Made by a program: the position numbers and the translations under genes
Part shown: positions 2,400-26,156 of the stretch, one piece after another
Layout of the letters: every line of letters starts with the position of its first letter
Numbering within the stretch: the stretch's first letter is position 1
The notes under the pieces: generated by a model
What the model was told of the DNA's origin: nothing
Seen by the model: only the letters and a program-made list of their open reading frames with translations
The model's database searches: none
From: a virus
Direction: 5' to 3' (one strand)
DNA: 26,156 nt
Virus record (IMG/VR): IMGVR_UViG_3300034021_001303
Span: 1 to 26,156 of that record

Positions 2400-3242
2400 A
2401 TGAGTAATGCACTTGACGCAGTACTGGCTCAGTACGAAAAGAACTCACAAGGTTCAAGTGACAGCAATCGTATGTCACAAGAAGAAAGAATGAAGAAATA
2501 TTTTGCTTGTATTCTACCGCAAGGTCAATCACAAGGTCAACGTAGAGTACGTATTCTTCCAACAAAAGATGGTTCTTCACCTTTTGTTGAAGTTTATTAC
2601 CACGAACTTCAAGTAGGTGGTAAATGGCAAAAGTTCTATGACCCGGGAAAGAACGACAACGAACGTTCTCCTTTGAATGAGGTTCACGAAGAACTTATGG
2701 CTACAGGAAAAGAATCCGATAAAGAACTTGCTCGTCAATACAAATCACGTAAATTCTACATCGCAAAAGTTGTAGACCGTGATGCGGAAGACGAAGGTGT
2801 AAAGTTTTGGAGATTCAAACACAATTACAAGAACGAAGGTATCTTGGATAAAATTATCCCCATTTGGAGACAAAAAGGTGATATCACCGACCCTGAAAAA
2901 GGACGTGACCTTATCATTCAGCTTGTAAAACAGAAGACTCCTGGTGGTAAAGATTACACATCAATTCAGACCATTATGCACGATGACCCATCAATTCTTC
3001 AGGAAGATGCTGAAGTTATGAAGTCATGGTTGGCAGATGAACTCACTTGGCAAGATGTGTATTCCAAAAAACCTGTTGAGTATCTTGAGGCAATCGCTCG
3101 TGGTGAAGAGCCACGTTGGGATAGTGAAACAGGTAAGTATGTTTACGGAGATGAAGCTATCATGTCTATGGGTGGTGGAAAGTCATCTGGTGTGGCAGAC
3201 CCTCAAGCAGGAGCTGACCCTGACGAAGATTTACCGTTCTAA
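2400..3242 (+). CDS. 32: gp32-like single-stranded DNA-binding protein
   Basis: The 280-residue product coats single-stranded DNA during replication and recombination. Similarity to T4 gp32 is visible in order: RRVRILPTKDGSSPF (residues 48-62, T4 has VIRFLPSKND...APF), a His in YYHEL at 68 (T4 His64), GGKWQKFY at 73-80 (T4 GKWYIE), and FYIAKVV near 119 (T4 ANILVVKD). The T4 zinc site is His plus three Cys. Here only the His remains, because the sole Cys of the protein is residue 37. The C-terminus is acidic and ends DPDEDLPF, like the tip of bacterial SSB proteins rather than the T4 gp32 tail. The gene has its own promoter and is followed by a hairpin, so it can be expressed as a separate cistron. 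This suits a protein needed in large amounts. Confidence 0.93.
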   Translation: MSNALDAVLAQYEKNSQGSSDSNRMSQEERMKKYFACILPQGQSQGQRRVRILPTKDGSSPFVEVYYHELQVGGKWQKFYDPGKNDNERSPLNEVHEELMATGKESDKELARQYKSRKFYIAKVVDRDAEDEGVKFWRFKHNYKNEGILDKIIPIWRQKGDITDPEKGRDLIIQLVKQKTPGGKDYTSIQTIMHDDPSILQEDAEVMKSWLADELTWQDVYSKKPVEYLEAIARGEEPRWDSETGKYVYGDEAIMSMGGGKSSGVADPQAGADPDEDLPF

Positions 3243-3247
3243 TTAAC

Positions 3248-3275
3248 AAGGGTGCAGGCGGTGTCTGCACCCTTT
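3248..3275 (+). terminator. Hairpin after gp32, probably a partial terminator
   Basis: AAGGGTGCAG (3248-3257) pairs perfectly with CTGCACCCTT (3265-3274) around a 7-base loop. Only three T residues follow directly, then AATATTTTTTAAT, so the U tract is interrupted. This suggests incomplete termination, or a structure that stabilises the 3' end of the gp32 mRNA while letting some transcription continue into uvsX. No separate uvsX promoter is evident in the 46-base gap. Confidence 0.7.
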
Positions 3276-3288
3276 AATATTTTTTAAT

Positions 3289-4299
3289 ATGGCACTAAAG
3301 AAAAACGATTTCAGTTCAATCAAGAAGAAGTACTCTACTTCTGCAAAATACAAACCCCAAAGATTCTTTGACTTGGGTTCCGACTTTTTGGATGCTGTGG
3401 GACTACCTGGTCCCGCAATTGGTCATTTGAATATGTTCTTGGGACACTCAGATACAGGTAAGACCACTGCGTTGGTTAAAACTGCGGTCTCGGCTCAGAA
3501 ACAAGGTATTCTCCCTGTATTCATTATCACCGAACAAAAGTGGAGTTTCGAACACGCGAAACTTATGGGTTTTGAGTGTGAAGAAGTTGTTGACCAACAG
3601 ACTGGTGAATTGGAATGGGATGGATTTTTCATTTTCAATAATAATTTCGACTACATTGAACAAATTACTGACTACATCAATAGTTTGTTGGACGCTCAAG
3701 AAAAGGGTGAACTTGATTATGATTTACTGTTTCTTTGGGATTCAGTTGGTTCTGTTCCTTGTAAGATGACTTACGATGGAAAGGGCGGTAAACAACACAA
3801 TGCATCTGTGTTAGCAGATAAGATTGGTATGGGTATTAACCAACGTATTTCAGGTTCAAGAAAGGCTGATACCAAATTTGAAAACAGTTTGGTTATTGTC
3901 AATCAACCATGGGTTGAACTTCCCGATAATCCTTTCGGTCAACCCAAGATTAAAGCTAAAGGTGGTGAGGCCATTTGGTTAAACTCATCTTTGGTATTTT
4001 TGTTTGGTAATCAAAAAGGTGCTGGTACCACCAAGATTACAGCAACCAAGGATAAGCGAACTGTTAAGTTTGCAACTCGTACCAAAGTTTCCGTATTGAA
4101 AAATCACATCAATGGATTGGGTTACGAAGACGGAAAAATCATTGTCACCCCACATGGTTTCTTGGCCGGTAAAGAGGCTGCTGAAGAAAAGGCATCCATC
4201 GAATCCTACAAGAAAGACCATGCCGATTATTGGAAAACTATAATTGGTTCAGATGGTGATTTTGCGTTGTCAGAGGAAAAGGAAAGTGAAAATCTATAA
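3289..4299 (+). CDS. uvsX: UvsX, RecA-like recombinase
   Basis: The 336-residue product is a RecA/Rad51-family ATPase that forms filaments on single-stranded DNA and drives strand invasion in recombination-dependent replication. The Walker A loop is GHSDTGKTT at residues 52-60. A Thr-Glu pair at 81-82 lies where the catalytic glutamate of the RecA fold is expected. Walker B is LLFLWDS at 146-152. Residues from about 165 (KGGKQHNASVLADKIGMGINQ) to 230 match the L1/L2 core region of phage UvsX rather than cellular RecA, which has a different Walker A (GPESSGKT). The protein is shorter than T4 UvsX (about 390 residues), mainly at the N-terminus. Its place between gp32 and rnh agrees with this role. 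The acidic C-terminus could bind partners. Confidence 0.92.
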   Translation: MALKKNDFSSIKKKYSTSAKYKPQRFFDLGSDFLDAVGLPGPAIGHLNMFLGHSDTGKTTALVKTAVSAQKQGILPVFIITEQKWSFEHAKLMGFECEEVVDQQTGELEWDGFFIFNNNFDYIEQITDYINSLLDAQEKGELDYDLLFLWDSVGSVPCKMTYDGKGGKQHNASVLADKIGMGINQRISGSRKADTKFENSLVIVNQPWVELPDNPFGQPKIKAKGGEAIWLNSSLVFLFGNQKGAGTTKITATKDKRTVKFATRTKVSVLKNHINGLGYEDGKIIVTPHGFLAGKEAAEEKASIESYKKDHADYWKTIIGSDGDFALSEEKESENL

Positions 4300-4310
4300 A
4301 CATCTTTTTA

Positions 4311-5318
4311 GTGAGGACTCTTTTAGTAGATGGTGATAACCTATTCAAAATCGGATTTCATGGAGTCAGAGAATTCTATGTCGATGGTGAACATATTGGA
4401 GGAGTCTTCCACTTTGTCAACACCCTTAGAAAACAAGTGGATGAGTACGACTACGACAAAGTCGTTGTCTTTTGGGACGGTATCGGTAACTCATCCGTCA
4501 GACGTGAAATATATCCTAAGTACAAACTGAATCGTCGTCAGACGATGAATGAATACCAACACGAGTCCTACAGATACCAAAAGGAACGTGTTAAACAGTA
4601 TTTGGAGGAATGTTTCATTAGACAAATTAGAGTTGATAACAACGAAGCTGACGACCTTATTGCCTACTACTGTTTAATCGGTACTGATGAACAAAAGGTA
4701 ATATTGTCTGCAGACCAAGATTTAATCCAACTCGTAAGTCCCACAACATCTATTTATTCACCAATTAAGAAGTTCTTCATTAGAAATGGGGAAAAAATTA
4801 ATATGTTAGGACAACAAATCCCACATGAAAATGTAAGAACAATTAAGGTGATTATGGGTGACAAAAGCGATAATATTGATGGTATTTCTTTGATGGGTGA
4901 CAAAACCTTTCTAAAATTTTTTCCTGAGGTAGTTGACAGAGTTGTCAATGTATCGGATATTTTGGAGAGAGGACAACAACTTTTAGAAGAACACAAATCA
5001 AACAAAGCCCTTATGAATCTTACTAAAGGAATCACTAAAGACGGTGAGTTGGGTTTGGAGTTCTTCGAAAGAAACAAAAAGATTGTTGACCTGTTGAACC
5101 CTTTGATTTCAGATGAGGGTAAAGAAATGGTCGAACTTTATTATCGTGAAACATTGGACCCCGAAGGGAGGGGGTCAAAGAACCTTATCAGAATGATGAC
5201 AGAGGATGGGTTTTTTAAGTACCTTCCAAAGGATGATGAAGCGTTTGTGAACTTTGTTAAACCTTTCACCAAACTCACAAGAAAAGAAAAAAGAAAATTC
5301 AATCAAGAAAACAATTAA
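4311..5318 (+). CDS. rnh: 5'-3' exonuclease / flap endonuclease (T4 RNase H type)
   Basis: The 335-residue product belongs to the FEN/5'-3' exonuclease family and probably removes RNA primers and flaps on the lagging strand. Metal-binding acidic residues are in the expected order: Asp7 and Asp9 (LLVDGDN), Asp56 (FWDG), Glu112/Asp114/Asp115 (NEADDLIAYY), Asp135/Asp137 (SADQDLIQL) and Asp184/Asp187 (GDKSDNIDGI), the last starting the helix-hairpin-helix region. An Arg/Lys-rich segment (RREIYPKYKLNRR, 64-76) matches the arch that handles the 5' end. The start is GTG at 4311, because no ATG fits and the family N-terminus begins only a few residues before LLVDGDN. It lies 11 bases after uvsX. The length and a basic C-terminus (LTRKEKRKF) agree with T4 RNase H. 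Confidence 0.92.
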   Translation: MRTLLVDGDNLFKIGFHGVREFYVDGEHIGGVFHFVNTLRKQVDEYDYDKVVVFWDGIGNSSVRREIYPKYKLNRRQTMNEYQHESYRYQKERVKQYLEECFIRQIRVDNNEADDLIAYYCLIGTDEQKVILSADQDLIQLVSPTTSIYSPIKKFFIRNGEKINMLGQQIPHENVRTIKVIMGDKSDNIDGISLMGDKTFLKFFPEVVDRVVNVSDILERGQQLLEEHKSNKALMNLTKGITKDGELGLEFFERNKKIVDLLNPLISDEGKEMVELYYRETLDPEGRGSKNLIRMMTEDGFFKYLPKDDEAFVNFVKPFTKLTRKEKRKFNQENN

Positions 5319-5328
5319 TTAAAATTTT

Positions 5329-5778
5329 ATGAAAGAACAAGATATTGTAAAAATGGAGTTTTTGATTACGTTGAACAACAACATCGTAATCCAAAGATAC
5401 TTCAATGTCCGAGGTTATAACCCAACCGCTCGAGCGTCTATGGACCTACATGAGTATGTCAAAGATTTTGTTGACAGTTTTGAAAGTACCCAAAAGATGC
5501 GCACCGTAATGTACATGATGGATAATCAGTACGAAATTTTGGAGGATGCGTCTATTTTGGAAACTAATAATACCGATGGACCTGAAGTATTTCATTTTTA
5601 CGTAAAAATTGGGGAGCAGACAATTTGTCATAGAATCCTTGATGCAAAAATTTTCCCACCTAAAATAAGATACACCGTAGACATCCGCCAGCAAGCAAAA
5701 ACTGTGCTTCGCGACCTAACTGACATATTTTCAGATGAAAATTTTACTACAAGTTACCTGAATTATCAACTCGCTTGA
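5329..5778 (+). CDS. Unknown protein in the replication block, 149 residues
   Basis: This gene sits 10 bases after rnh and 37 bases before the helicase gene. The product looks like a compact soluble alpha/beta protein. The N-terminus has a strand-rich stretch (MEFLITLNNNIVIQRYFNVRGYN, in two parts at residues 9-19 and 20-31), the middle is helical, and there is a second strand-rich part around 85-115. There is no nucleotide-binding loop, zinc motif, signal peptide or membrane helix. It does not resemble T4 gp59, UvsY or gp61 by eye. Its neighbours make a replication or recombination accessory role the natural guess, for instance a helicase loader or mediator, but that is inference from position only. 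Confidence 0.75.
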   Translation: MKEQDIVKMEFLITLNNNIVIQRYFNVRGYNPTARASMDLHEYVKDFVDSFESTQKMRTVMYMMDNQYEILEDASILETNNTDGPEVFHFYVKIGEQTICHRILDAKIFPPKIRYTVDIRQQAKTVLRDLTDIFSDENFTTSYLNYQLA

Positions 5779-5780
5779 GG

Positions 5781-5788
5781 TATTTATA
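5781..5788 (+). promoter_or_regulatory. TATTTATA motif before the helicase gene
   Basis: TATTTATA begins two bases after the stop codon of the 149-residue gene and 27 bases before the helicase ATG. It repeats the motif found at 1353 and, as TATTTATC, at 10731 and 13102. An A/G-rich stretch (GAAAAGGGAAAAAA) follows it and is the closest thing to a purine-rich ribosome site in the window. The regulatory role is inferred. Confidence 0.35.
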
Positions 5789-5815
5789 ACTTACAGAAAA
5801 GGGAAAAAATAAATT

Positions 5816-7192
5816 ATGTCAAATAGGAATTTCGAATACTTAGGAAATACATTTCAACTACAATTACTAAATCAAATAATACTGGACAAGGACTTTGCTC
5901 ATTCCATCATTGACGTAATTGAACCTTCTCATTTTGAGAACAAATACTTCAAAACTTTGTTGCAGTTAACTAAGGAATATTATTCTAAGTATGACTGCAC
6001 ACCATCGTTTGAAACTCTCGGACAGGTAGTAAAGAGTGAGTTCCCACAAGAACTCATGTTAAAAATACTCAACGATACAATCAAACAAATTCAAGACTCC
6101 TCGATTGAAGGTGCAAGTTTTGTTCAAGAAAAGGCTCTCAAGTTTTGTAAACAACAAGAGCTTCAAAAGGCCATTGTCAAATCCCAAAAAATTCTTGATA
6201 ATGGTGAGTTTGAGAACTACGAAAAACTTGAAGAACTATTCAGAGCCGCAATCCAAATCGGTGAAAATGGTAATAAAATCGAGGACGTATTCAATAATCT
6301 TGATGATGTCCTTAATGAAGATTTTAGACACCCAATTCCTATGGGAATTAGTGGTATTGACAAGTTATTGAAAGGTGGGCTTGCTAAAGGAGAGTTAGGT
6401 GTAATATTAGCACCAACAGGTGTGGGTAAAACAACTATTCTATCCAAAATTGCTAACAGTGCATTCAACAACGGATATAACGTATTACAATTATTCTTTG
6501 AGGACAATCCAAAAGTAATCCAAAGAAAACACTTTACGATGTGGACAGGAATCGCTCCCGATGAACTACCAAGTCACCGTGAAGAAGTTTTGGAAAAGGC
6601 ACGTCAAGTCAAAGAGGAAATGACAAACAAGTTGTTTCTCAAAAAGTTACCATCAGACCAATTTACCATGAATCAAATTAAAAATATGATTCGTAAAATG
6701 ATTGCCGATGGACATCGAATTGATATGATAGTTTTGGACTACATCGATTGTATTGTTCCTGACAGAAACTTGGGTGACGAGTGGAAAAGTGAAGGTTCGG
6801 TCATGCGTGGATACGAAGCACTGTGTCATGAATTAGGAGTTGTAGGTTGGACTGCAACACAGGGTAACAGAAGCTCTATATCTTCTGAGGTTGTTACCAC
6901 CGACCAGATGGGTGGTTCTATCAAAAAAGCACAAGTAGGTCACGTTATCATTTCTGTGGCAAAAACATTACAACAAAAAGAAATGAATTTAGCAACTATC
7001 GCAATTACCAAATCACGTGTTGGTAAGGACGGAGTTATCTTTGAAAACTGTAAGTTCAACAACGAGTTGTTGGATATTGATACGGAAAGCTCTGTAACTT
7101 TCTTAGGATTTGAAGAAAAGAAAGAGGAGAAAAACAGAGACCGAATCAAAGAACTTATGGAAAAAAGAAAACAAAGAGAACATACAAATTAA
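5816..7192 (+). CDS. 41: Replicative DNA helicase, gp41/DnaB type
   Basis: The 458-residue product is a hexameric DnaB-family helicase that unwinds the fork and would recruit primase. The N-terminal helical domain (1-150) resembles DnaB-N in pattern ([14 protein letters not shown], ...). The RecA-like motor begins at about 170 with the family signature [21 protein letters not shown]. Walker A is APTGVGKTT (199-207), a glutamate follows at 229 (FFEDN), Walker B is MIVLDYID (304-311), and the sensor segment GWTATQGNR lies at 344-352. [19 protein letters not shown] near the end corresponds to the arginine-finger region of DnaB (TKNRxG...). The last 30 residues are a charged Lys/Glu tail. The length matches T4 gp41 (475). 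It lies between the replication genes and nrdB, and the nrdB start is only 14 bases away. Confidence 0.95.
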
Positions 7193-7206
7193 ATTTTATA
7201 AAGAAT

Positions 7207-8166
7207 ATGGAAAAGATTTTGCAAGAAAATCCCGGACGTTTCGTGTTGTTCCCTATACAACATCATGACTTGTGGAAATTATATAAACAAGCTGAAGCAT
7301 GTATTTGGACTGCGGAAGAAATCGATTTGTCTCAAGACTTAATCGATTGGGAAAAATTAAATGAGGGTGAAAAACACTTCGTTAAACACGTGTTAGCGTT
7401 CTTCGCAGCAAGTGATGGTATTGTTAATGAAAACTTGGCAGAAAACTTCGTCAAAGAAGTACAATATACTGAAGCTAAGTTCTTCTACGGATTCCAAATA
7501 ATGATGGAAAACATTCACTCAGAGACCTACTCACTTTTGATAGATACCTATATTAAAGATAAAGAAGAACAAAATAGATTGTTCAATGCAATTGATACCG
7601 TACCTGCGGTACAGAAAAAAGCTCAATGGGCATTAAAGTGGATTAACTCAGAATCATTTGTTGAAAGATTGTTGGCGTTCGCTGCCGTTGAAGGTATTTT
7701 CTTTTCGGGCTCATTTTGTTCAATCTTTTGGCTCAAAAAACGTGGTTTGATGCCTGGATTGAGCTTCTCAAATGAGCTGATTTCTCGAGACGAAGGTTTA
7801 CATACAAATTTTGCGGTACACTTGTATAACCAACACATCGAAAATAAACTTTCCAAAGAAAGAGTCATTGAAATTTTAGGTTCGGCTTTGGAAATTGAAA
7901 AAGAATTTATTACAGAATCACTTCCTGTTGATTTGATTGGTATGAATTCTACATTAATGTCTCAATACTTGGAATATGTGACTGACAGATTGTTGGTTGA
8001 TTTGGGTATTGGAAAAGTATATAACTCAGAAAATCCTTTTGATTTCATGAAAAATATTGCTTTGGAAAACAAAACAAATTTCTTTGAAAAAAGAGTTTCA
8101 GATTATTCCAAGAGTGGTGTTGGTGATGTTGAAGAAAAAGAATTAAACTTTGAAGAAGATTTTTAA
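7207..8166 (+). CDS. nrdB: Class I ribonucleotide reductase, small (radical) subunit
   Basis: The 319-residue product generates the tyrosyl radical used for reduction of ribonucleotides to deoxyribonucleotides. All expected di-iron ligands are present and spaced as in mammalian R2: Asp70, Glu101, His104, Glu162, Glu196 and His199, with radical Tyr108 in [11 protein letters not shown]. Long stretches match animal RRM2 as I remember it, for example [12 protein letters not shown] (65-76), [10 protein letters not shown] (161-170) and [11 protein letters not shown] (189-199). The C-terminus LNFEEDF corresponds to the tail that docks on the large subunit (TLDADF in mammals). The length lacks only the N-terminal extension of the eukaryotic proteins. 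nrdA follows after two bases, so the two are probably cotranscribed and translationally coupled. Confidence 0.97.
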
Positions 8167-8168
8167 TT

Positions 8169-10634
8169 ATGGAAGTAGTAAAAAGAGACGGAACCCGAGA
8201 ACCTGTCAAGTTTGATAAAATCTCGGCAAGAATTAAAAAACAAACATACGGACTCAACGAAGATTATGTTGATTATGTAGAAGTTTCTAGGAAAGTCATC
8301 GCGGGTTTGTATGACGGGGTAACTACTGAAGAGTTGGATGTTTTGGCGGCAGAAACCGCGGCATCACTTATCACAAATCATCCTGATTACTCCAAACTTG
8401 CATCAAGAATTGCTATCAGTTCTTTGTATAAAAGAGTTGATAAACACTTTAGTTCTACGGCAAAAAAGTTGTATGAATATATCAATCCGAAAACAGGTGA
8501 AAAGGCTGGTATGATTTCAGACGAAACATATTCTGTGATTGAAAAGTATGGTCGTGAACTTGATGCAATGATGGTACATGATAGAGATTTCAATTTTGAT
8601 TACTTCGGATTCAAAACTTTGGAAAAAAGTTACCTACTGAAAATGTATGGACAAGTTGCTGAAACACCACAACATCTTTACATGAGAGTTTCGGTAGGTA
8701 TATGGGGAGACAATTTGGAAATGGTTCAGAAAACATACGATATGTTGAGTGAAGGTTTATTTACTCACGCAACACCAACATTGTTTAACGCTGGTACCAA
8801 ACGTCCTCAACTTTCATCGTGTTTCTTAATCGATGTTCATGATGATTCTATTCCTGGTATCTACAAAACTCTCAGCGATGCTGCGGTAATTTCACAAAAC
8901 GCTGGTGGTATTGGAATTAATATTCACAAAATTAGGGCAAAAGGTGCATACATTAAAGGTACTAACGGAACATCAAACGGAATTGTTCCGATGTTGAAAG
9001 TATTCAACGAAACTGCTCGATATGTAGACCAAGGTGGTGGAAAAAGAAAAGGTTCGATAGCAATCTATTTAGAACCATGGCATGCTGATGTAGAGGATTT
9101 CTTAGATTTACGTAAGAACCATGGTAAAGAAGAGATGAGAGCTAGAGATTTATTCTTAGCTCTTTGGACACCAAACTTATTTATGGAAAGAGTAGAATCT
9201 GGTGGTGATTGGTCACTATTCTCTCCTGACGAGGTACCTGGTTTGGTCGATGCGTATGATAATCCTGACGATAAAAAGTTTACCAAACTTTATGAAAAAT
9301 ACGAGTCGGAAGGAAAGGCTATTAAAGTGATGAAGGCGAGAGATTTGTGGGAAAAGATTTTGGATGCTCAGATTGAAACTGGTACACCATATATGTTGTA
9401 TAAGGACCAAGCTAATTCCAAATCAAATCAAAAGAATTTGGGAACAATTAAGTCTTCAAATCTTTGTACAGAAATTATTGAATACACCGATTCTAAAGAA
9501 ACTGCGGTCTGTAACTTAGCGTCTATTGCACTACCTAAATTTGTTGAGATTCCTAGTGGAAAAGTTAGAGAAAAGAATAAAAAACTCAGAACTTTTGATT
9601 TCAAACATCTCTATGATGTAACCTATCAGGCGACAGTTAATTTGAACAAAGTTATTGACGTTAATTTTTATCCTACACCTGAAACCAAACGTTCAAATAT
9701 GAAACACCGTCCAATAGGACTGGGAGTCCAAGGATTAGCAGACACGTTTGCTCTTTTAGGTTTATCATTTGAGAGTGAAGAAGCTCAAGAATTGAATAAA
9801 AATATATTTGAAACAATGTATTTTGCAGCAATGACAGCATCAAAGGACTTGGCAAAAAAAGATGGTCCATATGAATCATTCAAAGGCTCTCCAACTTCAA
9901 AAGGTATTTTCCAATATGATATGTGGGGATATACTGAAGACCACCTATCAGGTATGTGGGATTGGTATTCTTTGAAAAAAGAAGTAATGGAGGTTGGTCT
10001 TAGAAATTCATTATTGATGGCTCCGATGCCAACAGCATCAACAGCTCAAATTTTGGGTAACAATGAATGTTTTGAACCATTTACTGCGAACCTTTATAAA
10101 AGAAACACTTTGAGTGGGGAATATGTTATTATCAACAAATACTTAATCGAAGACTTGGTAAACCTTGGGTTGTGGAATGAAAAAATCAGACTTCAATTGT
10201 TTGCTGAAAACGGTTCGGTTCAAAATATCGAAAGTATCCCTAGTGAAATTCGTGAGACATATAAAACTGTTTGGGAAATGAAAGGTAAAACTTTGTTAGA
10301 CATGGCTCGTGACAGAGCAGTCTTCATTGACCAATCACAATCTTTGAACTTGTTTATGCAAGATGTCACACATTCTAAACTTTCATCGGCACATATGTAT
10401 GGATGGAAATTGGGATTAAAGACTGGTATGTATTATTTGAGAACCAAAGCTAAGGCTTCGGCAATTAAAGGATTGGGTGTCGACATGTCACAACTTCAAC
10501 CGATGGAAGAACCAACTGTTGTAAAAAATACAACAGTTCAAGATGACAAATTATCTGATTTAGGTGTAACTGAGGAGATGATGAGTAAGGTTTGTTCATT
10601 GGATGACCCAAATTGTTTAACTTGTTCTGCATGA
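8169..10634 (+). CDS. nrdA: Class I ribonucleotide reductase, large (catalytic) subunit
   Basis: The 821-residue product binds nucleotide substrates and, with NrdB, makes deoxynucleotides for phage replication. An ATP-cone allosteric domain is intact at residues 1-95 (VVKRDGTREPVKFDKISARI). Catalytic residues are all visible: Cys218 in LSSCFL, Asn431-Cys433-Glu435 in NLCTEI, and Cys448 in AVCNLASI. The positions are nearly identical to human RRM1 (218, 427, 429, 431, 444). The radical-relay tyrosine pair is in GMYYLRTKA, and the redox-shuttle cysteines 816 and 819 are in the C-terminal NCLTCSA. The protein is complete and has no intein or intron. A strong terminator follows 42 bases downstream and closes the replication/nucleotide block. 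Confidence 0.97.
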   Translation: MEVVKRDGTREPVKFDKISARIKKQTYGLNEDYVDYVEVSRKVIAGLYDGVTTEELDVLAAETAASLITNHPDYSKLASRIAISSLYKRVDKHFSSTAKKLYEYINPKTGEKAGMISDETYSVIEKYGRELDAMMVHDRDFNFDYFGFKTLEKSYLLKMYGQVAETPQHLYMRVSVGIWGDNLEMVQKTYDMLSEGLFTHATPTLFNAGTKRPQLSSCFLIDVHDDSIPGIYKTLSDAAVISQNAGGIGINIHKIRAKGAYIKGTNGTSNGIVPMLKVFNETARYVDQGGGKRKGSIAIYLEPWHADVEDFLDLRKNHGKEEMRARDLFLALWTPNLFMERVESGGDWSLFSPDEVPGLVDAYDNPDDKKFTKLYEKYESEGKAIKVMKARDLWEKILDAQIETGTPYMLYKDQANSKSNQKNLGTIKSSNLCTEIIEYTDSKETAVCNLASIALPKFVEIPSGKVREKNKKLRTFDFKHLYDVTYQATVNLNKVIDVNFYPTPETKRSNMKHRPIGLGVQGLADTFALLGLSFESEEAQELNKNIFETMYFAAMTASKDLAKKDGPYESFKGSPTSKGIFQYDMWGYTEDHLSGMWDWYSLKKEVMEVGLRNSLLMAPMPTASTAQILGNNECFEPFTANLYKRNTLSGEYVIINKYLIEDLVNLGLWNEKIRLQLFAENGSVQNIESIPSEIRETYKTVWEMKGKTLLDMARDRAVFIDQSQSLNLFMQDVTHSKLSSAHMYGWKLGLKTGMYYLRTKAKASAIKGLGVDMSQLQPMEEPTVVKNTTVQDDKLSDLGVTEEMMSKVCSLDDPNCLTCSA

Positions 10635-10676
10635 TTTATCCATCATTAGGTTGATAAAATAGAAACAATGTATTAT

Positions 10677-10705
10677 AAACCCATCATTAATTTGATGGGT
10701 TTTTT
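10677..10705 (+). terminator. Strong intrinsic terminator after nrdA
   Basis: AAACCCATCA (10677-10686) pairs perfectly with TGATGGGTTT (10693-10702) around a TTAATT loop, and the T run covers 10700-10705. It ends the nrdB-nrdA unit and separates it from the tail operon. Because this hairpin lies inside the longest reading frame upstream of gp25, it also shows that the gp25 start must be downstream of it. Confidence 0.92.
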
Positions 10706-10710
10706 GTTTG

Positions 10711-10738
10711 TTATAAAAAATATCAAGATATATTTATC
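10711..10738 (+). promoter_or_regulatory. Putative late promoter before gp25
   Basis: TTATAAAA (10711-10718), 12 bases, then TATTTATC (10731-10738). The identical two boxes at identical spacing recur before the giant tail protein (13082/13102). A TTTG also sits at 10707-10710, 20 bases before TATTTATC, which mimics the spacing of a Bacteroidota promoter with a diverged -7 box. The ATG of gp25 lies only four bases beyond the second box, so a transcript starting here would be nearly leaderless. Confidence 0.45.
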
Positions 10739-10742
10739 AGAT

Positions 10743-11204
10743 ATGGCTGATGGTAAAACATATGGTTTAACGTTCCCCTTCGTAGATTCCTTCGATGGTA
10801 AGTATTTGGATTTATCCGATTACACCGCTGAAGAGATTAGAAGTAATTTGATTCACCTATTACTAACAAGAAAAGGTAGTAGATATTTTCTTCCAAACTT
10901 TGGTACTCGTTTGTTGGAATATATCTTTGAGCCCTTGGACGGCCCAACCTTTCAGAGTATCGAAGCTGAAATTAGAGATTCAGTAGAAGCCTACATGCCA
11001 AATCTACAATTAACTAATATTTCTATCACAGCACCCACAGGAGAAGCGGCTACTTTGACTGCTACTTCAGCAGGTGGTGTGATTGCCCCTCAACTCACAA
11101 GATATCAGCAAGATGTTGGTGAATATACTGCGACAGTTAGAATTGATTACGCAATTTCTAATGATGTATTCAACACTAAAGATTTCGTAATCATCAATAT
11201 TTAA
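10743..11204 (+). CDS. 25: Baseplate wedge protein gp25
   Basis: The 153-residue product is a gp25/GpW-type baseplate wedge component, which bridges the wedge and the base of the sheath. The conserved core is RKGSRYFLPNFGTRLLEYIFEP, residues 43-64 in two runs, in which the E-P pair of the family's EPR-like motif is followed here by Leu rather than Arg. I chose the ATG at 10743 (MADGKTYG...) rather than an ATG at 10668. The longer version would translate straight through the nrdA terminator and add 25 residues absent from the family. The C-terminal part forms the expected strand-rich extension (TATVRIDYAIS). T4 gp25 is about 132 residues. gp6 starts four bases after the stop. Confidence 0.93.
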   Translation: MADGKTYGLTFPFVDSFDGKYLDLSDYTAEEIRSNLIHLLLTRKGSRYFLPNFGTRLLEYIFEPLDGPTFQSIEAEIRDSVEAYMPNLQLTNISITAPTGEAATLTATSAGGVIAPQLTRYQQDVGEYTATVRIDYAISNDVFNTKDFVIINI

Positions 11205-11208
11205 CAAT

Positions 11209-13050
11209 ATGGCACAAAGGAGAATATCTTATACCGTCAGAGACTTCGCGGCAATTCGTCAGGAATTAATCAATTATACCAGAACTTACTACCCTGAACT
11301 AATTGATAATTTCAACGACGCATCTGTATTCTCAGTATTTTTGGATTTGAATGCGGCTGTTGCAGATAACTTACATTATCATATTGACAGAAGTATTCAG
11401 GAAACAGTTCTTCAATATGCTCAACAACGTTCTTCAATCTATAATATTGCTAGAACTTATGGACTGAAAATACCTGGTCAAAGACCTTCAATAGCCCTTA
11501 TAGATTTCTCGATTACAGTACCGGCTTTTGGTGATAAAGAAGATGAAAGATATTTGGGTATCTTAAGAAGAGGGAGTCAAGTCATTGGCTCTGGTCAAGT
11601 ATTTGAAAACCTTTACGATATCAATTTTGCATCCCCATTTAACCAAGATGGTTTCCCAAACAGATTGAAAATTCCAAATTTTGATACATCAGGAAATCTT
11701 ATCAATTACACAATTACAAAACGTGAGACGGTAATTAATGGTATTACAAAAGTTTTCAAAAGAGTTATTACTCCAAACGATGTAAGACCTTTCTTTGAAT
11801 TTTTCTTACCTGAAAAAAATGTTTTGGGTGTGACATCAATAATCCAAAGAGACGGAACTTCATATTCCAATGTTCCAACCGCACAAGAGTTTTTGGGTGT
11901 GGACGGTAGATGGTACGAAGTATCTGCTTTAGCCGAAGATAGAGTTTTTATCGAAGACCCTACAAAACCATCAGACGACCCAGCAATTAAAGTTGGTAGA
12001 TACATCCAAACCCAAGAGAGATTCATGACCGAATATACTCCTGAAGGGTTTACCAAAATTACTTTCGGTGGAGGTACAAACACTGCTGAAGACCAACTTA
12101 GAGAATTTACCGCGTTGGATGTACCACTTAAGATTCAAAGATACCAAAATAACAGTATGTCTTTGGGTTCAACACCCAAAGCAAATACAACTCTGTTTAT
12201 TCAATACAGAATTGGTGGGGGTGTTGGAACTAACTTAGGTGTAAATGTAATCAATCAGATTGGTGCAACAGATTTCTTTGTGAACGGACCATCAGATATC
12301 ATCAACACTTCTGTAATCAACTCATTAACTTGTAATAACGTAACGGCGGCCATTGGAGGTGCTGGTTATCCTTCTACTGAAGAAGTTAGAAACTATGTGA
12401 CATTTAACTTCGCAGCACAAAACAGAGCTGTAACAATCAATGACTACGAGGCAATAATTAGGAACATGCCAGGTCAATTCGGTGCTCCAGCGAAGGTATC
12501 AATTACAGAAAACAATAATAAAATCAATGTAAATGTTCTATCATATGACCCGAGTGGAAATTTGACATCAGAGGTATCAAATACATTGAAACAAAATTTG
12601 GCAACTTATTTGTCAAATTACAGAATGATTAATGATTATGTTTCCATCGGAACTGCGGAAGTTTTGGACTTAGCTGTTGATGTTCAAATTGTATTGGATT
12701 CAACTCAAAATCAGGGAGTCGTTATTTCGAATGTTATTGACAGAATCACAACATTCTTTAGTCCAACATTAAGAGGTTTGGGTGAAGATATTTTAGTTTC
12801 AGAATTGAATAGAATCATACAATCTGAAAATGGGGTTATTAGTGTAGGTGATATATCAATCTTTGGTAGAGTAGGTGGACAATATAGTTCTGCTGAAACA
12901 TCTATGCCATATTCAAATCCTCTTACAAAACAAATTCAACTGACTGATAACACAATCTTTGCTGAACCAAATCAGATATATCAAGTAAGATTCCCAGCTA
13001 AAGACATTACCGTAAGAGTTAAGAATTATCAGACAACCAATTTCTCCTGA
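11209..13050 (+). CDS. 6: Baseplate wedge protein gp6 (Baseplate J family)
   Basis: The 613-residue product is the main ring-forming wedge protein of contractile tails. The N-terminus (ISYTVRDFAAIRQELINY, then NDASVFSVFLDLNAAVADN) is typical of T4-like gp6. A Gly-rich segment at about 288-345 (ITFGGGTN, GGGVGTNLGV) and the block PSTEEVRNYVTFNF to NRAVTINDYEAIIRNMPG (about 387-423, Tyr413) match the Baseplate_J consensus, in which a conserved R-A-V-T-x-x-D-Y-E follows the Gly-rich part. The length is close to T4 gp6 (660). It follows gp25 by four bases, as in T4 and other contractile systems. A 76-base spacer then separates it from the next gene. Confidence 0.93.
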   Translation: MAQRRISYTVRDFAAIRQELINYTRTYYPELIDNFNDASVFSVFLDLNAAVADNLHYHIDRSIQETVLQYAQQRSSIYNIARTYGLKIPGQRPSIALIDFSITVPAFGDKEDERYLGILRRGSQVIGSGQVFENLYDINFASPFNQDGFPNRLKIPNFDTSGNLINYTITKRETVINGITKVFKRVITPNDVRPFFEFFLPEKNVLGVTSIIQRDGTSYSNVPTAQEFLGVDGRWYEVSALAEDRVFIEDPTKPSDDPAIKVGRYIQTQERFMTEYTPEGFTKITFGGGTNTAEDQLREFTALDVPLKIQRYQNNSMSLGSTPKANTTLFIQYRIGGGVGTNLGVNVINQIGATDFFVNGPSDIINTSVINSLTCNNVTAAIGGAGYPSTEEVRNYVTFNFAAQNRAVTINDYEAIIRNMPGQFGAPAKVSITENNNKINVNVLSYDPSGNLTSEVSNTLKQNLATYLSNYRMINDYVSIGTAEVLDLAVDVQIVLDSTQNQGVVISNVIDRITTFFSPTLRGLGEDILVSELNRIIQSENGVISVGDISIFGRVGGQYSSAETSMPYSNPLTKQIQLTDNTIFAEPNQIYQVRFPAKDITVRVKNYQTTNFS

Positions 13051-19935: not shown

Positions 19936-20701
19936 CATAAGAGTTTTGTTTGATAACAGAGGTAAGGACTTGGTTATCCCAATCGAACAGACGTGGGATT
20001 TCCAAGGACAACAGCAAGCCGTTGAGGAATATGAAGCTCAAGTGGTTGCAGAAATCCTTAACAAAGACCAAGACTTTGAGGTAAACAGATTTGTTCACAA
20101 AGAGTACGACCCCAACAAATCTTCAATCAATTATGATTTTTATTTTTGGAGTTCAACAACAAACCCTGGTGTATATACAAACTCATATTTACCAAGATTT
20201 ACTCCAAATCAAATATACTACTACACAGGTCCGTTTGTTAAATCTTTTTGGAAGTTGGATTTCTATACCACCCCCCAAAATAGAGACCAACAAGCCTACA
20301 TAACAATTATTCTCCCCACTCAACAAGGGTTATTTCAACAAACATTGCTTAATAACACCACAAATGTTACAATAAGAAAACCATCTTATAGTTTGGATTA
20401 TATTGGTGATAAAGAAGGATTTTTCTTGTATTGGTTGAAAAAAAGAAATTTCTTGGATATTAACACCTTCTACATGACCGCCAAGTTTTTTGATGGTAGT
20501 ACAGGAGAGTTTACTAAGTTTATGAATCAACCTCAAAATACTTTGGCAAACCCAACGGATTTCCCTGGTGAAGAATATTTCTATTATAAAGTGGATTTGG
20601 ATTACATCTATCAAACATATGAAGTTTTCAGTTATCCAAACATCGTTCGAAGTGGTACGGTAAGTAATCCGATAAAATGGTATGAATACGTGAACCCATA
20701 A
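19922..20701 (+). CDS. Tail-operon protein of unknown function, 259 residues
   Basis: It starts 14 bases before the preceding gene ends and shares one base with the next start (TAATG). The product is soluble and very rich in Tyr and Phe. It opens with RVLFDNRGKDLVIPIEQTW, which looks like a strand-turn-strand, and has a helical stretch at about 30-55 (AVEEYEAQVVAEILNKDQDF). No catalytic motif, signal sequence or repeat is evident. The tight packing in the baseplate operon makes a virion role likely. I do not recognise the family. Confidence 0.72.
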   Translation: MAANNIRVLFDNRGKDLVIPIEQTWDFQGQQQAVEEYEAQVVAEILNKDQDFEVNRFVHKEYDPNKSSINYDFYFWSSTTNPGVYTNSYLPRFTPNQIYYYTGPFVKSFWKLDFYTTPQNRDQQAYITIILPTQQGLFQQTLLNNTTNVTIRKPSYSLDYIGDKEGFFLYWLKKRNFLDINTFYMTAKFFDGSTGEFTKFMNQPQNTLANPTDFPGEEYFYYKVDLDYIYQTYEVFSYPNIVRSGTVSNPIKWYEYVNP

Positions 20702-21780
20702 TGGATACACAAACAATGAGCATCAGAGTTTCTCCTGAGGTGTTGGACACCATCATTCATGATGTGACATCCAACAACCAAACATTTGGGGTATATTCTT
20801 CCATGACCGAAACTCTGACAGGGGGTACAAACAATACCTCGTTGTTAACAGGGTTGACGGTTCCTATTTTGCTTGTTCAAAACACCGTAGATATCGGTTA
20901 CTATTCGGTATTCGACGGTGCCATTTCCCAAATGAATGTGGTAAACAATTTCTTGTTTTCATCAACTACCACCAATCCATATGTTTGGAATGTTTATAAT
21001 ACTTCCGATATAGAATTTAATGCCTACTTGCAATTGGCGGCTTACAGAGTTGATTGGGGGGATGGTAGTCCAATACAATCTATTACGAGCTATGCTCCGA
21101 ACTCTTTGGTACATAATTATCCTGCAACTCCTGCCCAATATACAATTACATTACTTCAAACCAATCCATGGGGTAACACGACGGTATCTAAAAATATACA
21201 AGTTCCATACGTTGATGTTCCAAATTTCGACCCACAGGGAACGGCGTATTTCACTCCAAATGTGGGGGAATGGCAAAACACTCCGATTTCTTATAATTTT
21301 ATTTTCACGGGGGATAGTGTGAATACCGTAAATGCCCAAGTGAGTTCGGCGTATGTTACCGTACCATTTACCGTTACTGGATTAACGGCTTCGAGATTAA
21401 GTGAATTATCGCAATATGGTTCACAAAAATATCTTTTGTTGGTCCCTGTTCAAAGAGATGGTGTTGATTATGGTATTGTAACGGACATTTCCTTGACATA
21501 CACCGCCTACACCATTCAAGATGTAAACTACATTGACTACCAAGATGGCGTGACAATTTACTCATTGCAATCTTCAGGTTTGATACCAGAATGGATGGTT
21601 GCAGAACCTTTGGTAAAAGATGAGTTATTATTAGGCATTTCTGGTCAGGCAGAAATACAATCAAACATATTTATCGAAAGAGGGAAAAACTCTGCTTATG
21701 AACGTATCCAAAGAATTGGTGAAGTTGATAATCTTGGGGACCTCATAAAATATGGATATAGATTCTTTAACGTAACCTAA
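20701..21780 (+). CDS. Tail-operon protein with a PKD-like domain
   Basis: The 359-residue product starts on the last base of the preceding stop codon. Residues about 105-170 carry a PKD-type immunoglobulin-like fold. YRVDWGDGSPI (115-125) holds the WGDG signature, and LVHNYPATPAQYTITL (136-151) matches the H-x-Y-x-x-P-G-x-Y-x-V-x-L strand. PKD domains are common in extracellular and adhesive proteins and in some tail proteins. The C-terminus (VKDELLLGISGQAEI, FIERGKNSAYERIQRIGEV, then GDLIKYGYRFFNVT) looks like a distinct conserved tail-assembly segment, possibly the anchor to the baseplate. A second Met at residue 6 is an alternative start. The role as a structural or host-contact protein is inferred. 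Confidence 0.75.
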   Translation: MDTQTMSIRVSPEVLDTIIHDVTSNNQTFGVYSSMTETLTGGTNNTSLLTGLTVPILLVQNTVDIGYYSVFDGAISQMNVVNNFLFSSTTTNPYVWNVYNTSDIEFNAYLQLAAYRVDWGDGSPIQSITSYAPNSLVHNYPATPAQYTITLLQTNPWGNTTVSKNIQVPYVDVPNFDPQGTAYFTPNVGEWQNTPISYNFIFTGDSVNTVNAQVSSAYVTVPFTVTGLTASRLSELSQYGSQKYLLLVPVQRDGVDYGIVTDISLTYTAYTIQDVNYIDYQDGVTIYSLQSSGLIPEWMVAEPLVKDELLLGISGQAEIQSNIFIERGKNSAYERIQRIGEVDNLGDLIKYGYRFFNVT

Positions 21781-22693: not shown

Positions 22694-25648
22694 ATGGCTA
22701 AAAAGTTCATCCCCAATACCGCGGCTTCAGGTTCAGGTACTCCTTTCGATAATATTGTCGGGTTACAAACTGTGCAGGGTGGTGGACTGACTCAAGGTAA
22801 TTTTGAGTTCTCAACTGGGTTATCAGAAAAAGTTAATAGAAATTTTAACATAGGTGTTTTCCAAGACCCAGTTTCATTGGAGTCGTTGAACATAGAATCA
22901 GTTAACGAAGCAAGAGAATTATTAGCAAAAGAGTATCGTGTCTACCCAAACTACGATTTATCTGTTGTCACCAACTTTACCATTTATGGTTCTTTACAAA
23001 AAAGATTAGAAGTTTCTGTTCAGAGAATTATCAATTTCTTCCCTGCGGGAATCGAGATTGACTATGTTTATTATGATTTCACAACAGGTAATACGGCGAC
23101 AGGAATAACATACGATTCCATTTCGAACGAAACAGAACTGGTTATTAATGTTGATAGAATTAAAAACCCATTTTCATTAGATTATTCAACAAATTCTGTA
23201 ATAAATTTACAGAATAGGGAACAAGAGTTTTCGCCTATAAGAGATTTGACAAATCGATACAGAGATTATGCTCTTGTGGTTAGTGGAATTACTTATCCAA
23301 TAATAGACTTTACACCTTCCAATAGTTTATTCTCGGGACAAATCAGTTTAATCGTAGAGGGTAATCCATTCAGTGGTTCAATTTCTACTACGAGTTCATT
23401 GGTTATCAGACCAAATGATTATTATGTAGAAAAATCTTTTGCTGAAGATTTCGACGAGGTTGAAAGATTCTTACTCAACAGACTGACAGTACCAATTTAC
23501 ACGGCAACATTTAATGTTCCAACTGAGAGTGATAGTGGTGTAGTTACAGTTTCAAATCAAAGTGTTACATGGAGTAAAGATGGACTTTGGAATTTGGATA
23601 TTAGAACACCAGAATTCTCAAACTATCTTGAACAATTAAATGAAATTGGTGTAGAGTTCGATGCCTACAAAACAAATCTTATTGCTAGATTTTTAGTAAC
23701 TGAGTCTTTGTTGGAATTTGATACACCCGACCACAAAGTTGGTAAAGTATTACAAATTTACGGAAGAAGTTTTGACCAAATAAAACAATTCATCGATGCT
23801 TTGGCATACATGAATTCAGTTCAATACAACCCTGGTAATGATATACCATCGATGTTATTGAAAAATTTGGCACAAACTTTAGGTTGGTCCACTAACATTT
23901 CACCAATCACAAATGAATCTTTCTTGGATTCTGTTTATTCATCAACAGGTGTTACACAATACGAGGGATTTTCAAGAGAATTAACACCATCGGAATTGAA
24001 TTATCAATTCTACCGAAACTTAATTCTAAACTCGGCATATCTTTTCAAATCAAAAGGAACAAGAAGGTCCATTGAATTTACGATGAGACTTGTTGGTGCA
24101 CCCGATGCTTTGATTGAATTTAATGAACACGTTTATTTGGCGGACCAAAGAATAAACATGAGACAGTTCAATCAAGAATTTATTCAAATTACTGGTGGAA
24201 CTTATGTCGATGAATTTACCGTATTTGATTCAGGTAATACATTCTCAATTTTGGGTGTCAAATACACCGCATTTACCTCAACATCTGAAACTTTTATTGT
24301 TGACCAAGTAAGGGAAGATTATCCTGTAGACGATTTAGGTTATCCACAAGCCCCGATTGATACTGAAAATTATTTCTTTGAAAAAGGTGCTGGTTGGTTC
24401 GAGGCAACTCCCCAACACAGAAGTCCTGCGGTAGTTAATCAATCATTGTCTGTGTTTACAGGAAGTAGTCCAAATGTTCAAACTTTCCTACAACCATTTA
24501 CCTACGGACAAGAATATTTCAATAGATTCAGAAATTTCCCATACATGAATTTGGGATTCAAATTGAAACTCACAAAAGACAATAAGAAAAGTTGGCAACC
24601 ACCTGTCTACCGAGTCTCAAGAGATGCTGGGTATGAAGCTCTATATTACGCTGGAGATGACAAATTGGTTATGAATGCTAAGAATGTAGATTTATTCTTG
24701 AATCCGGCTCAAGGTATTTTGTATGATGTTTGGCAGATGTCACAAAATAATAACTACCCAATTCCGAATACAGGGATGACACCGGCATATCCATTTTTGG
24801 GAAGTTATGATTGGACATTTATCAATCCACAACCTAATAAGAAAACGTTTTTTGAATTTGCTCAAACGTTTATTAATAATACAATCAACATTTCTAATAG
24901 ATGGTATTCTACAGACGGAAAAACTGGCGGTTATCCTGACTTGTTAAACATCTATTACAACTATCTATTATCCGACCAAAATGTTGGAATCCCAAATGAC
25001 AATTTTACTTATAGAAAACTAATTGAATATGTTCAGGGATTAGGACCGTATTGGATACGATTGGTCCAACAGATGGTTCCAGCCTCAACTATTTGGAACA
25101 CAGGGGTTCGTTTAGAAAATTCGGCATTACAAAGACAAAAATACGTATACAGAAGACAAAGAGGTTGTCAAATTATTCCGATAGAAGTGGACCCATGTTT
25201 GGCTCAAGGAGATTTGTTCAAATATGATTGCACATCTGAAACTGCAACTTGTTCGATATTCCCATGGATAGGAGTAAGTACCTCAATTAACTCATTCTCT
25301 GAGGTATTATATTCAGTATTGAATACTTACGTGACATCAATAGGTAAAACTCTGAATGATTGTCAACTCAATACTCTATACACTGATTGGTATGTTGATG
25401 TAAGAATAGATGGGAATGTCGTTGTTCAATCATCTTTCTTTACAGGGTATGGACCATCCCAAGTTCCAACAAATAATCAGTGGAGAAGTGCCTTACTTCT
25501 TTATCTTTCACAATTAGTGAATGAAGGATTTTACTTCTATGTAAACGGTAATACTGTTACGGTATACAGATTGGAATGTGCGTCCGACTTGACTCCAAGT
25601 ACATTGGAAATAAATGTTGGAATAAATATTAATATAACTTGTAACTAA
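22694..25648 (+). CDS. Large baseplate protein with P2 gpI / gp7-like signature
   Basis: In this 984-residue product, residues about 330-480 hold the most informative region. LAQTLGWSTNISP is followed by NLILNSAYLFKSKGTRRSIE (439-460) and MRLVGAPDALIEF. The pattern of an Asn/Ser-rich helix, then K-G-T-R-x-x-I-E-F, then a short helix ending in LVG, is what I know from tail protein I of phage P2 and its relatives. In contractile systems, gpI-type proteins are the counterpart of the T4 gp7 core that pairs with gp6 to form the wedge. The first 300 residues are strand-rich. The C-terminus has a Cys-rich part (RRQRGCQIIPIEVDPC, then DCTSETATC) and probably a peripheral domain. Its stop overlaps the next start by one base. 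Confidence 0.7.
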   Translation: MAKKFIPNTAASGSGTPFDNIVGLQTVQGGGLTQGNFEFSTGLSEKVNRNFNIGVFQDPVSLESLNIESVNEARELLAKEYRVYPNYDLSVVTNFTIYGSLQKRLEVSVQRIINFFPAGIEIDYVYYDFTTGNTATGITYDSISNETELVINVDRIKNPFSLDYSTNSVINLQNREQEFSPIRDLTNRYRDYALVVSGITYPIIDFTPSNSLFSGQISLIVEGNPFSGSISTTSSLVIRPNDYYVEKSFAEDFDEVERFLLNRLTVPIYTATFNVPTESDSGVVTVSNQSVTWSKDGLWNLDIRTPEFSNYLEQLNEIGVEFDAYKTNLIARFLVTESLLEFDTPDHKVGKVLQIYGRSFDQIKQFIDALAYMNSVQYNPGNDIPSMLLKNLAQTLGWSTNISPITNESFLDSVYSSTGVTQYEGFSRELTPSELNYQFYRNLILNSAYLFKSKGTRRSIEFTMRLVGAPDALIEFNEHVYLADQRINMRQFNQEFIQITGGTYVDEFTVFDSGNTFSILGVKYTAFTSTSETFIVDQVREDYPVDDLGYPQAPIDTENYFFEKGAGWFEATPQHRSPAVVNQSLSVFTGSSPNVQTFLQPFTYGQEYFNRFRNFPYMNLGFKLKLTKDNKKSWQPPVYRVSRDAGYEALYYAGDDKLVMNAKNVDLFLNPAQGILYDVWQMSQNNNYPIPNTGMTPAYPFLGSYDWTFINPQPNKKTFFEFAQTFINNTINISNRWYSTDGKTGGYPDLLNIYYNYLLSDQNVGIPNDNFTYRKLIEYVQGLGPYWIRLVQQMVPASTIWNTGVRLENSALQRQKYVYRRQRGCQIIPIEVDPCLAQGDLFKYDCTSETATCSIFPWIGVSTSINSFSEVLYSVLNTYVTSIGKTLNDCQLNTLYTDWYVDVRIDGNVVVQSSFFTGYGPSQVPTNNQWRSALLLYLSQLVNEGFYFYVNGNTVTVYRLECASDLTPSTLEINVGININITCN

Positions 25649-26156
25649 TGTCGGCTTTTGGATATGTTTTATCGATTACTGGAACTTGTGATAACAACAT
25701 AGGAAGTGCGTTGATTACAGGTAGTGGTGGGGTTCCGCCATACACTTTTGATTGGTATGACCCTGACTTAGGAACCGGTCCTTATAAAACAAATTTAGCC
25801 GCGGGAACTTACTTAGTAAGAGCTAATGACTCAACCGCACCTGTTAACAACGAATTTTACATCAACGTACAAGTCGGAGATTCATTTGAACTTGATTTAA
25901 TTAGTGTTACGGGTACAACTTGCGGTGATAATAATGGTTATGTTAGAGTTTCTGCCGATACTGACAATAATATTGTCGATTGGTACCTCTACACGGGTTC
26001 AACTTATTTGATTGACAGTACATCCACGAATGATGGTTTTGCAGAATTTGATAACCTTGCACCGGGCACTTATTACATTTTGGGTCAGAATGGTGCGGGA
26101 TGTTCAGGAACCACAGCAGAATTCATAGTGTATACATCCTCAACCTTGGATTATGG
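25648..26156 (+). CDS. SprB-repeat-like adhesin or tail fibre, 3' end cut by the window edge
   Basis: The frame starts at ATG 25648 on the last base of the preceding stop codon and remains open to the right edge (169 codons). Two tandem immunoglobulin-like units are visible. Unit 1 (residues about 5-76) has TGTCDNN, GGVPPYTFDWYD and LAAGTYLVRAND. Unit 2 (about 83-163) has TGTTCGDNNGYV, VDWYLY and LAPGTYYILGQNGAGC. The order C-x-(D/N)-N-x-G, then G-G-x-P-P-Y-x-x-x-W, then L-x-x-G-T-Y is the pattern of SprB repeats from flavobacterial gliding adhesins. There is no signal peptide, as expected for a virion protein. It follows the baseplate genes, so a host-contact fibre or adhesin is likely. Confidence 0.75.
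   Translation, partial: MSAFGYVLSITGTCDNNIGSALITGSGGVPPYTFDWYDPDLGTGPYKTNLAAGTYLVRANDSTAPVNNEFYINVQVGDSFELDLISVTGTTCGDNNGYVRVSADTDNNIVDWYLYTGSTYLIDSTSTNDGFAEFDNLAPGTYYILGQNGAGCSGTTAEFIVYTSSTLDY

Follow-up and report, generated by a model that had tools for sequence, protein, structure and literature searches.

An uncultured virus encodes, within its tail gene cluster, a protein made of tandem Ig-like repeats of the SprB type, which we refer to as gene X. Based on our results, we hold with moderate confidence that its product acts as a tail-associated adhesion stalk in a T4-like phage with a Bacteroidota host, with a probable role at the host surface. The gene is best read as encoding a tail stalk or an adhesion scaffold. 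This places an SprB-repeat protein in an uncultured group of T4-like phages that is present in many metagenomes, and the group also gains a well-supported host phylum. The window, by which we mean the whole stretch of DNA that was analysed, corresponds to a 26,156-base virus record in IMG/VR, and its contig stops inside gene X. The features discussed below are collected in Table 1.

Table 1. Positions of features in the window and of a second SprB-like gene in large relatives
Feature	Position	Strand	Remarks
Replication block SSB - recombinase - exonuclease - helicase - NrdB - NrdA	2400..10634	+	blastp
gp25-like baseplate wedge protein	10668..11204	+	phrog_261, E 3.1e-15
gp6-like baseplate wedge protein	11209..13050	+	phrog_219, E 8.7e-23; 26% identical to Flavobacterium phage immuto
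984-aa tail-cluster protein	22694..25648	+	directly upstream of gene X
C-terminal domain of 984-aa protein	25265..25645	+	homologous to gene X C-terminal domain (hhalign)
Gene X, 5' part	25648..26154	+	frame open to contig end, 169 aa, no stop
Repeat R1 of gene X, aa 1-81	25648..25890	+	PF13573 SprB; GGVPPY 25726-25743; LAAGTY 25795-25812
Repeat R2 of gene X, aa 82-166	25891..26145	+	PF19081 Ig_7; LAPGTY 26056-26073
Second SprB-like gene	L204:3857-6070	-	
Second SprB-like gene	L206:10392-12878	-	
Second SprB-like gene	L207:6508-9198	-	
Second SprB-like gene	L208:9362-11683	+	

Gene X encodes a fixed array of seven SprB-type repeats

The preliminary description of this DNA had reported two tandem units sharing GGVPPY...W and LAAGTY or LAPGTY signatures. 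Both Ig-like units and both of the latter motifs are present, but GGxPPY occurs in R1 alone, with a W four residues after it, while R2 retains the W and LAPGTY. In Pfam, R1 matches PF13573 (SprB) with an E-value of 2.7e-5 and 24.2 bits, below the curated cut-off of 28, and the diverged R2 (31% identical to R1) finds its best match in PF19081 (Ig_7; E 6e-4, 20.4 bits, cut-off 27.3). The SprB cut-off, which the window fragment alone fails, is passed by the gene X family: six full-length orthologues score 51-90 bits, matches above the cut-off are found in 14 of 15 long viral records, and no other family comes near SprB in matching the full-length proteins. Since the fragment has orthologues at 33-59% identity and the six full-length ones reach these scores, the repeats of the window are not a chance resemblance. 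The claim of SprB-type repeats in a conserved tail-cluster gene is thereby borne out, and profile searches did not reassign the units to a different Ig-like family unconnected with SprB.

A search of IMG/VR with the fragment itself returned 23 stretches, and a similarity search of annotated phages gave no match. Using the upstream 984-aa gene, relatives of which are encoded by 196 IMG/VR stretches, we kept 80 loci; SprB-type repeats follow immediately in every one of the 69 loci that extend at least 1.5 kb beyond that gene. Extending the contig to the right had been proposed as a means of counting the repeats, and we read the count from the relatives instead: all 54 complete distinct gene X proteins have exactly seven repeats, followed by a C-terminal domain of ~135 aa. 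Thirty-seven of these copies are bare and of constant length (705-717 aa), ten carry an N-terminal module, four a C-terminal extension and three both. The repeats of the window take their expected places in this array, R1 being 48-68% identical to R1 of its nearest relatives and about 25-30% to other positions, and R2 having its best matches, up to 50%, in R2 of relatives.

Two observations concern other parts of these genomes and proteins. Two C-terminal extensions behind the stalk (376-422 aa; L031:15097-16362 and L059:15097-16224) are without a Pfam match, and the one in L031 contains repeated motifs such as VYNPTLNKMYACS that look beta-propeller-like by eye. In addition, four large relatives have a second gene, distant from gene X, that encodes 738-897 aa with two diverged SprB-like repeats and Thr/Pro linkers; the one copy that was scanned had no Pfam match.

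Position in the tail cluster and a shared C-terminal domain

The repeats had been described as directly following the baseplate genes. The position in the tail cluster was confirmed, but the direct neighbour, whose stop codon coincides with the start of gene X, is the 984-aa gene, with the wedge genes (gp25-like, gp6-like) at a distance of about 12.6-15 kb upstream. The 984-aa protein matches neither Pfam nor PHROGs and is a tail protein by position only. Importantly, its C-terminal domain aligns with that of gene X in hhalign (probability 94.6%, E 6.5e-8), and the domain common to both proteins suggests that gene X probably attaches to the same structure. One relative (L036) has a tail fibre-like gene downstream of gene X. 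Judging from gene order and this shared domain, the product of gene X would be located in the tail. For the tail proteins that follow gp6 in the window, the stretches of immuto and of Microcystis phage Mel-JY01 that were searched contain no detectable counterpart. Elsewhere in the cluster (20701-21777), a 359-aa protein shows by eye a PKD-like motif, RVDWGDGSP, with no Pfam match at E up to 1.

N-terminal modules are exchanged while the stalk is conserved

In close relatives, unrelated N-terminal modules are joined to the stalk through Thr/Pro linkers, and those that were scanned had no Pfam match. Between the loci L011 and L015, the 984-aa proteins are 98% identical and the stalks 86%, with modules at 25%; between L011 and L012, the modules are 81% identical on stalks that are 65% identical (984-aa protein, 78%), which indicates that modules move between phages. 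The gene X of the window is bare, and in a tree of the 984-aa protein the window is unplaced at the base of the module-bearing group. As the window phage and 37 of the 54 complete copies do without an extra module, host recognition by such a module is not general.

These data bear on the possibility that gene X encodes a pure structural spacer, whose seven beads set the distance from baseplate to fibre and bind nothing. The unvarying copy number, the narrow range of bare lengths and the bare majority of complete copies fit a spacer well, but receptor-binding parts are expected to behave as the N-terminal modules do, being replaced while the stalk stays conserved, and Ig-like phage proteins have mediated adhesion when displayed on another phage (PMC13370021). 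We therefore regard a spacer without binding function as unlikely, and prefer an adhesion stalk.

Structure models

The AlphaFold2 model of the window fragment, built from an alignment of 32 sequences, has two beta-sandwiches (mean pLDDT 90.7). In that of a complete 710-aa relative, seven sandwiches are accompanied by a C-terminal domain of alpha/beta type (mean pLDDT 82, pTM 0.35), and a pTM of this level does not define how the domains pack. Foldseek matched the window model to generic Ig/FN3 folds with TM-scores below 0.5, for which reason we draw no function from these matches. Among solved structures, the full-length model is closest in fold to GhpA, the grappling hook protein of Aureispira, a genus of Bacteroidota (E 2e-20), with the low TM-scores that one expects when the model does not define the packing of the domains.

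A search of solved structures with a single protein sequence gave no match, and a profile search of the PDB gave weak Ig-like matches that include a neck whisker protein and decoration proteins. Together with weak matches to Hoc-like head decoration proteins in PHROGs (E 1e-7 and 2e-5), these would fit a Hoc- or whisker-like Ig string that sits on the capsid or neck and not on the baseplate. However, such matches amount to generic Ig similarity, and both the gene order and the C-terminal domain in common with the adjacent tail-cluster protein point to the baseplate, which makes a decoration protein quite improbable and is consistent with a stalk in the tail.

Evolution of the repeats and their bacterial counterparts

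Between phages, repeats of the same position average 38-57% identity. Those at different positions are about 28% identical, both between and within proteins, the highest pair being R3/R7 (35-36%). A tree that includes 160 bacterial units recovers R1-R5 and R7 as one clade apiece (support 85-99) and groups the phage units together (5 changes vs 32.6 in shuffles), but it is poorly resolved and has too few columns to separate one capture from several. A test for recombination between repeat units had been advised, and position identities, tree and complete copies gave no sign of exchange, homogenisation or change in number among the phage repeats. Bacterial arrays are longer (median of 14 recognised units, some arrays being cut by locus ends) and internally more alike (36% vs 29% in the phages). 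Given this, and the position-specific repeats free of any sign of homogenisation, the seven-repeat array of the phages looks old.

The 80 bacterial loci with the greatest likeness to gene X carry Bacteroidota names in 78 cases; of the other two, one has no assigned phylum and one comes from a metagenome bin named Sphingomonadales. A comparison with bacterial adhesins, as had been advised, returned the same repeat family, but even the best relatives in these loci are about 25-32% identical to the gene X repeats, and the C-terminal domain of gene X was not found in any of the 80. Inspection of the N-terminus of gene X revealed no signal peptide of the kind that marks an SprB adhesin. As for a type IX secretion C-terminal signal, Por_Secre_tail matched full-length copies only below threshold, internally and over the repeats.

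It had been suggested that the fibre could mimic the SprB-type adhesins of its host or bind the same polysaccharides, those to which gliding cells adhere. Bacteroidota surface proteins do belong to the same domain family, and the closest fold among solved structures, GhpA, is an adhesin of such a bacterium. Against this, the array is fixed at seven position-specific repeats that are far in sequence from the bacterial ones (just about 25-32% identity), and the SprB repeat is common in Bacteroidota proteins, one Flavobacterium genome having 106 matches. In a module this common, sharing the repeat does not imply sharing a ligand, and we consider mimicry very improbable. The common domain family does not imply that an adhesin has been copied, and the idea of mimicry is corrected accordingly. 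A recent capture of an adhesin segment from host DNA, with repeat units still recombining, can be dismissed as extremely improbable: the family is shared with Bacteroidota, but no bacterial match exceeds about 32% identity among the 80 best loci, the C-terminal domain was not found in them, all 54 complete copies have seven repeats, and the orthology of the repeats is position-specific across the phage group. An adhesion stalk of long standing in the phages agrees better with these data.

The only annotated-phage match of a full-length query was LR756502.1, a 642-kb uncultured phage record in which a 1675-aa frame (L209:10870-15894) holds 14 SprB-type repeats, with a signal-peptide-like start and an NAFTPNGDGI end typical of type IX-secreted proteins. 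We rejected it as a phage relative, the protein resembling a bacterial secreted adhesin; either the record of a huge phage contains an adhesin of bacterial style, or the assembly includes bacterial sequence.

The host of the phage group

The repeats had also been taken as a clue to the host phylum, and this clue received independent support. The replication block of the window has the same six-gene order as in Flavobacterium phage immuto (24-43% identity by blastp), and its recombinase matches immuto phages only, among 50,697 records at E 1e-5. Immuto, the nearest relative in culture that retains this gene order, thus infects a member of the Bacteroidota, and not a host outside that phylum. 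The Shine-Dalgarno motif is at chance level both in a 295-kb relative, where 4% of genes have it (chance, 4%), and in immuto (6%; chance, 6%), in contrast to 40% in Mel-JY01 and 48% in T4; in the window it is found at 11% of 19 genes (4% by chance). Intergenic DNA of the 295-kb relative contains TATCTTTG, which we take to be a form of the Bacteroidota -7 element TAnnTTTG, 22 times vs 0.9 expected, and TATAAATA, presumably the T4 late promoter motif, 36 times vs 7.4 expected. The TAnnTTTG evidence comes from this one relative; the signal was absent from the 584 intergenic bases of the window and was not enriched in those of immuto (3.1 kb).

Expression signals of Bacteroidota type and a gene order shared with a cultured Bacteroidota phage are therefore both found in this group. 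As the synteny with immuto, the recombinase, the Shine-Dalgarno level, the promoters of one relative and the bacterial repeat loci agree, the host is very probably a member of the Bacteroidota.

The Microcystis phage Mel-JY01 (PP395634.1), whose named host is cyanobacterial, has distant homologues of the baseplate wedge proteins and the helicase (26-27% identity). A cyanobacterial host was considered through this phage and rejected: the baseplate identity is about 26%, SprB repeats were not found there, and its Shine-Dalgarno level is 40% vs 4% in the relative. The 295-kb relative (G001, L191-L205) also has about 28 tRNA genes clustered in L197-L198 and an over-represented intergenic motif, TCAGGTTC (27 vs 0.9 expected).

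A model for the gene X protein

In the adhesion stalk that we propose, seven SprB-type Ig-like beads, established in complete relatives by homology and modelling (two beads are visible in the window), would form a rod of fixed length. The C-terminal domain, homologous to that of the 984-aa protein, probably docks the rod to the baseplate. The N-terminus, which in close relatives carries exchangeable Cys-rich modules, probably points outward, and the protein would contribute to host-surface recognition or reversible binding. The beads appear to have a common origin with the repeats found in surface proteins of Bacteroidota, and the phage lineage probably acquired them long ago. More tentatively, we suggest that T4-like phages of Bacteroidota may possess a general adhesion scaffold made from host-type SprB beads, in which a seven-domain, ruler-like stalk and an anchor shared with its neighbour are combined with receptor-binding modules that are exchanged through Thr/Pro linkers and change specificity. 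With its exchangeable modules, the fixed stalk offers a concrete candidate for the way in which Bacteroidota phages recognise their hosts.

Comparison with known systems

SprB is the gliding adhesin of Flavobacterium johnsoniae, and bacterial SprB-repeat surface proteins are secreted by the type IX system. Gene X has PF13573 repeats in common with SprB and with other such proteins of Bacteroidota, but the bacterial proteins have longer arrays and type IX secretion, whereas gene X encodes about 710 aa, with no evident signal peptide and with a C-terminal domain that was not found in the bacterial loci. A BFVD entry named 'SprB repeat [uncultured Caudovirales phage]' (A0A6J5LD72) is a full-length match (34% identity over 728 columns, E 6.5e-63) and apparently belongs to the same family; its name is automatic, and we found no account of its position, copy number or modules. 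Our literature search found no paper that joins SprB repeats with phage tails or describes the gene X family.

Like Hoc of T4 and the Ig-like proteins of gut phages, which mediated adhesion when displayed on another phage (PMC13370021), gene X encodes an Ig-like string, and the known cases are tied to surface adhesion. Unlike them, it is of the SprB type, belongs to a baseplate cluster, and has seven beads and a C-terminal domain shared with a tail-cluster neighbour. The closest published precedent is the tandem arrays of BACON domains in tail-associated genes of crAss-like phages, for which a role in host binding has been suggested (PMC6949934). In both, tandem Ig-like domains associated with Bacteroidota are found in a tail gene cluster and are distinct from the bacterial repeats. 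Gene X would thus resemble the BACON arrays in how it works without being one of them: no BACON domain was matched in gene X among the Pfam results, and gene X differs from these arrays in its SprB family, in its occurrence in T4-like myoviruses (as judged by the wedge genes), in a copy number fixed at seven, in a C-terminal domain shared with its neighbour, and in its swappable modules.
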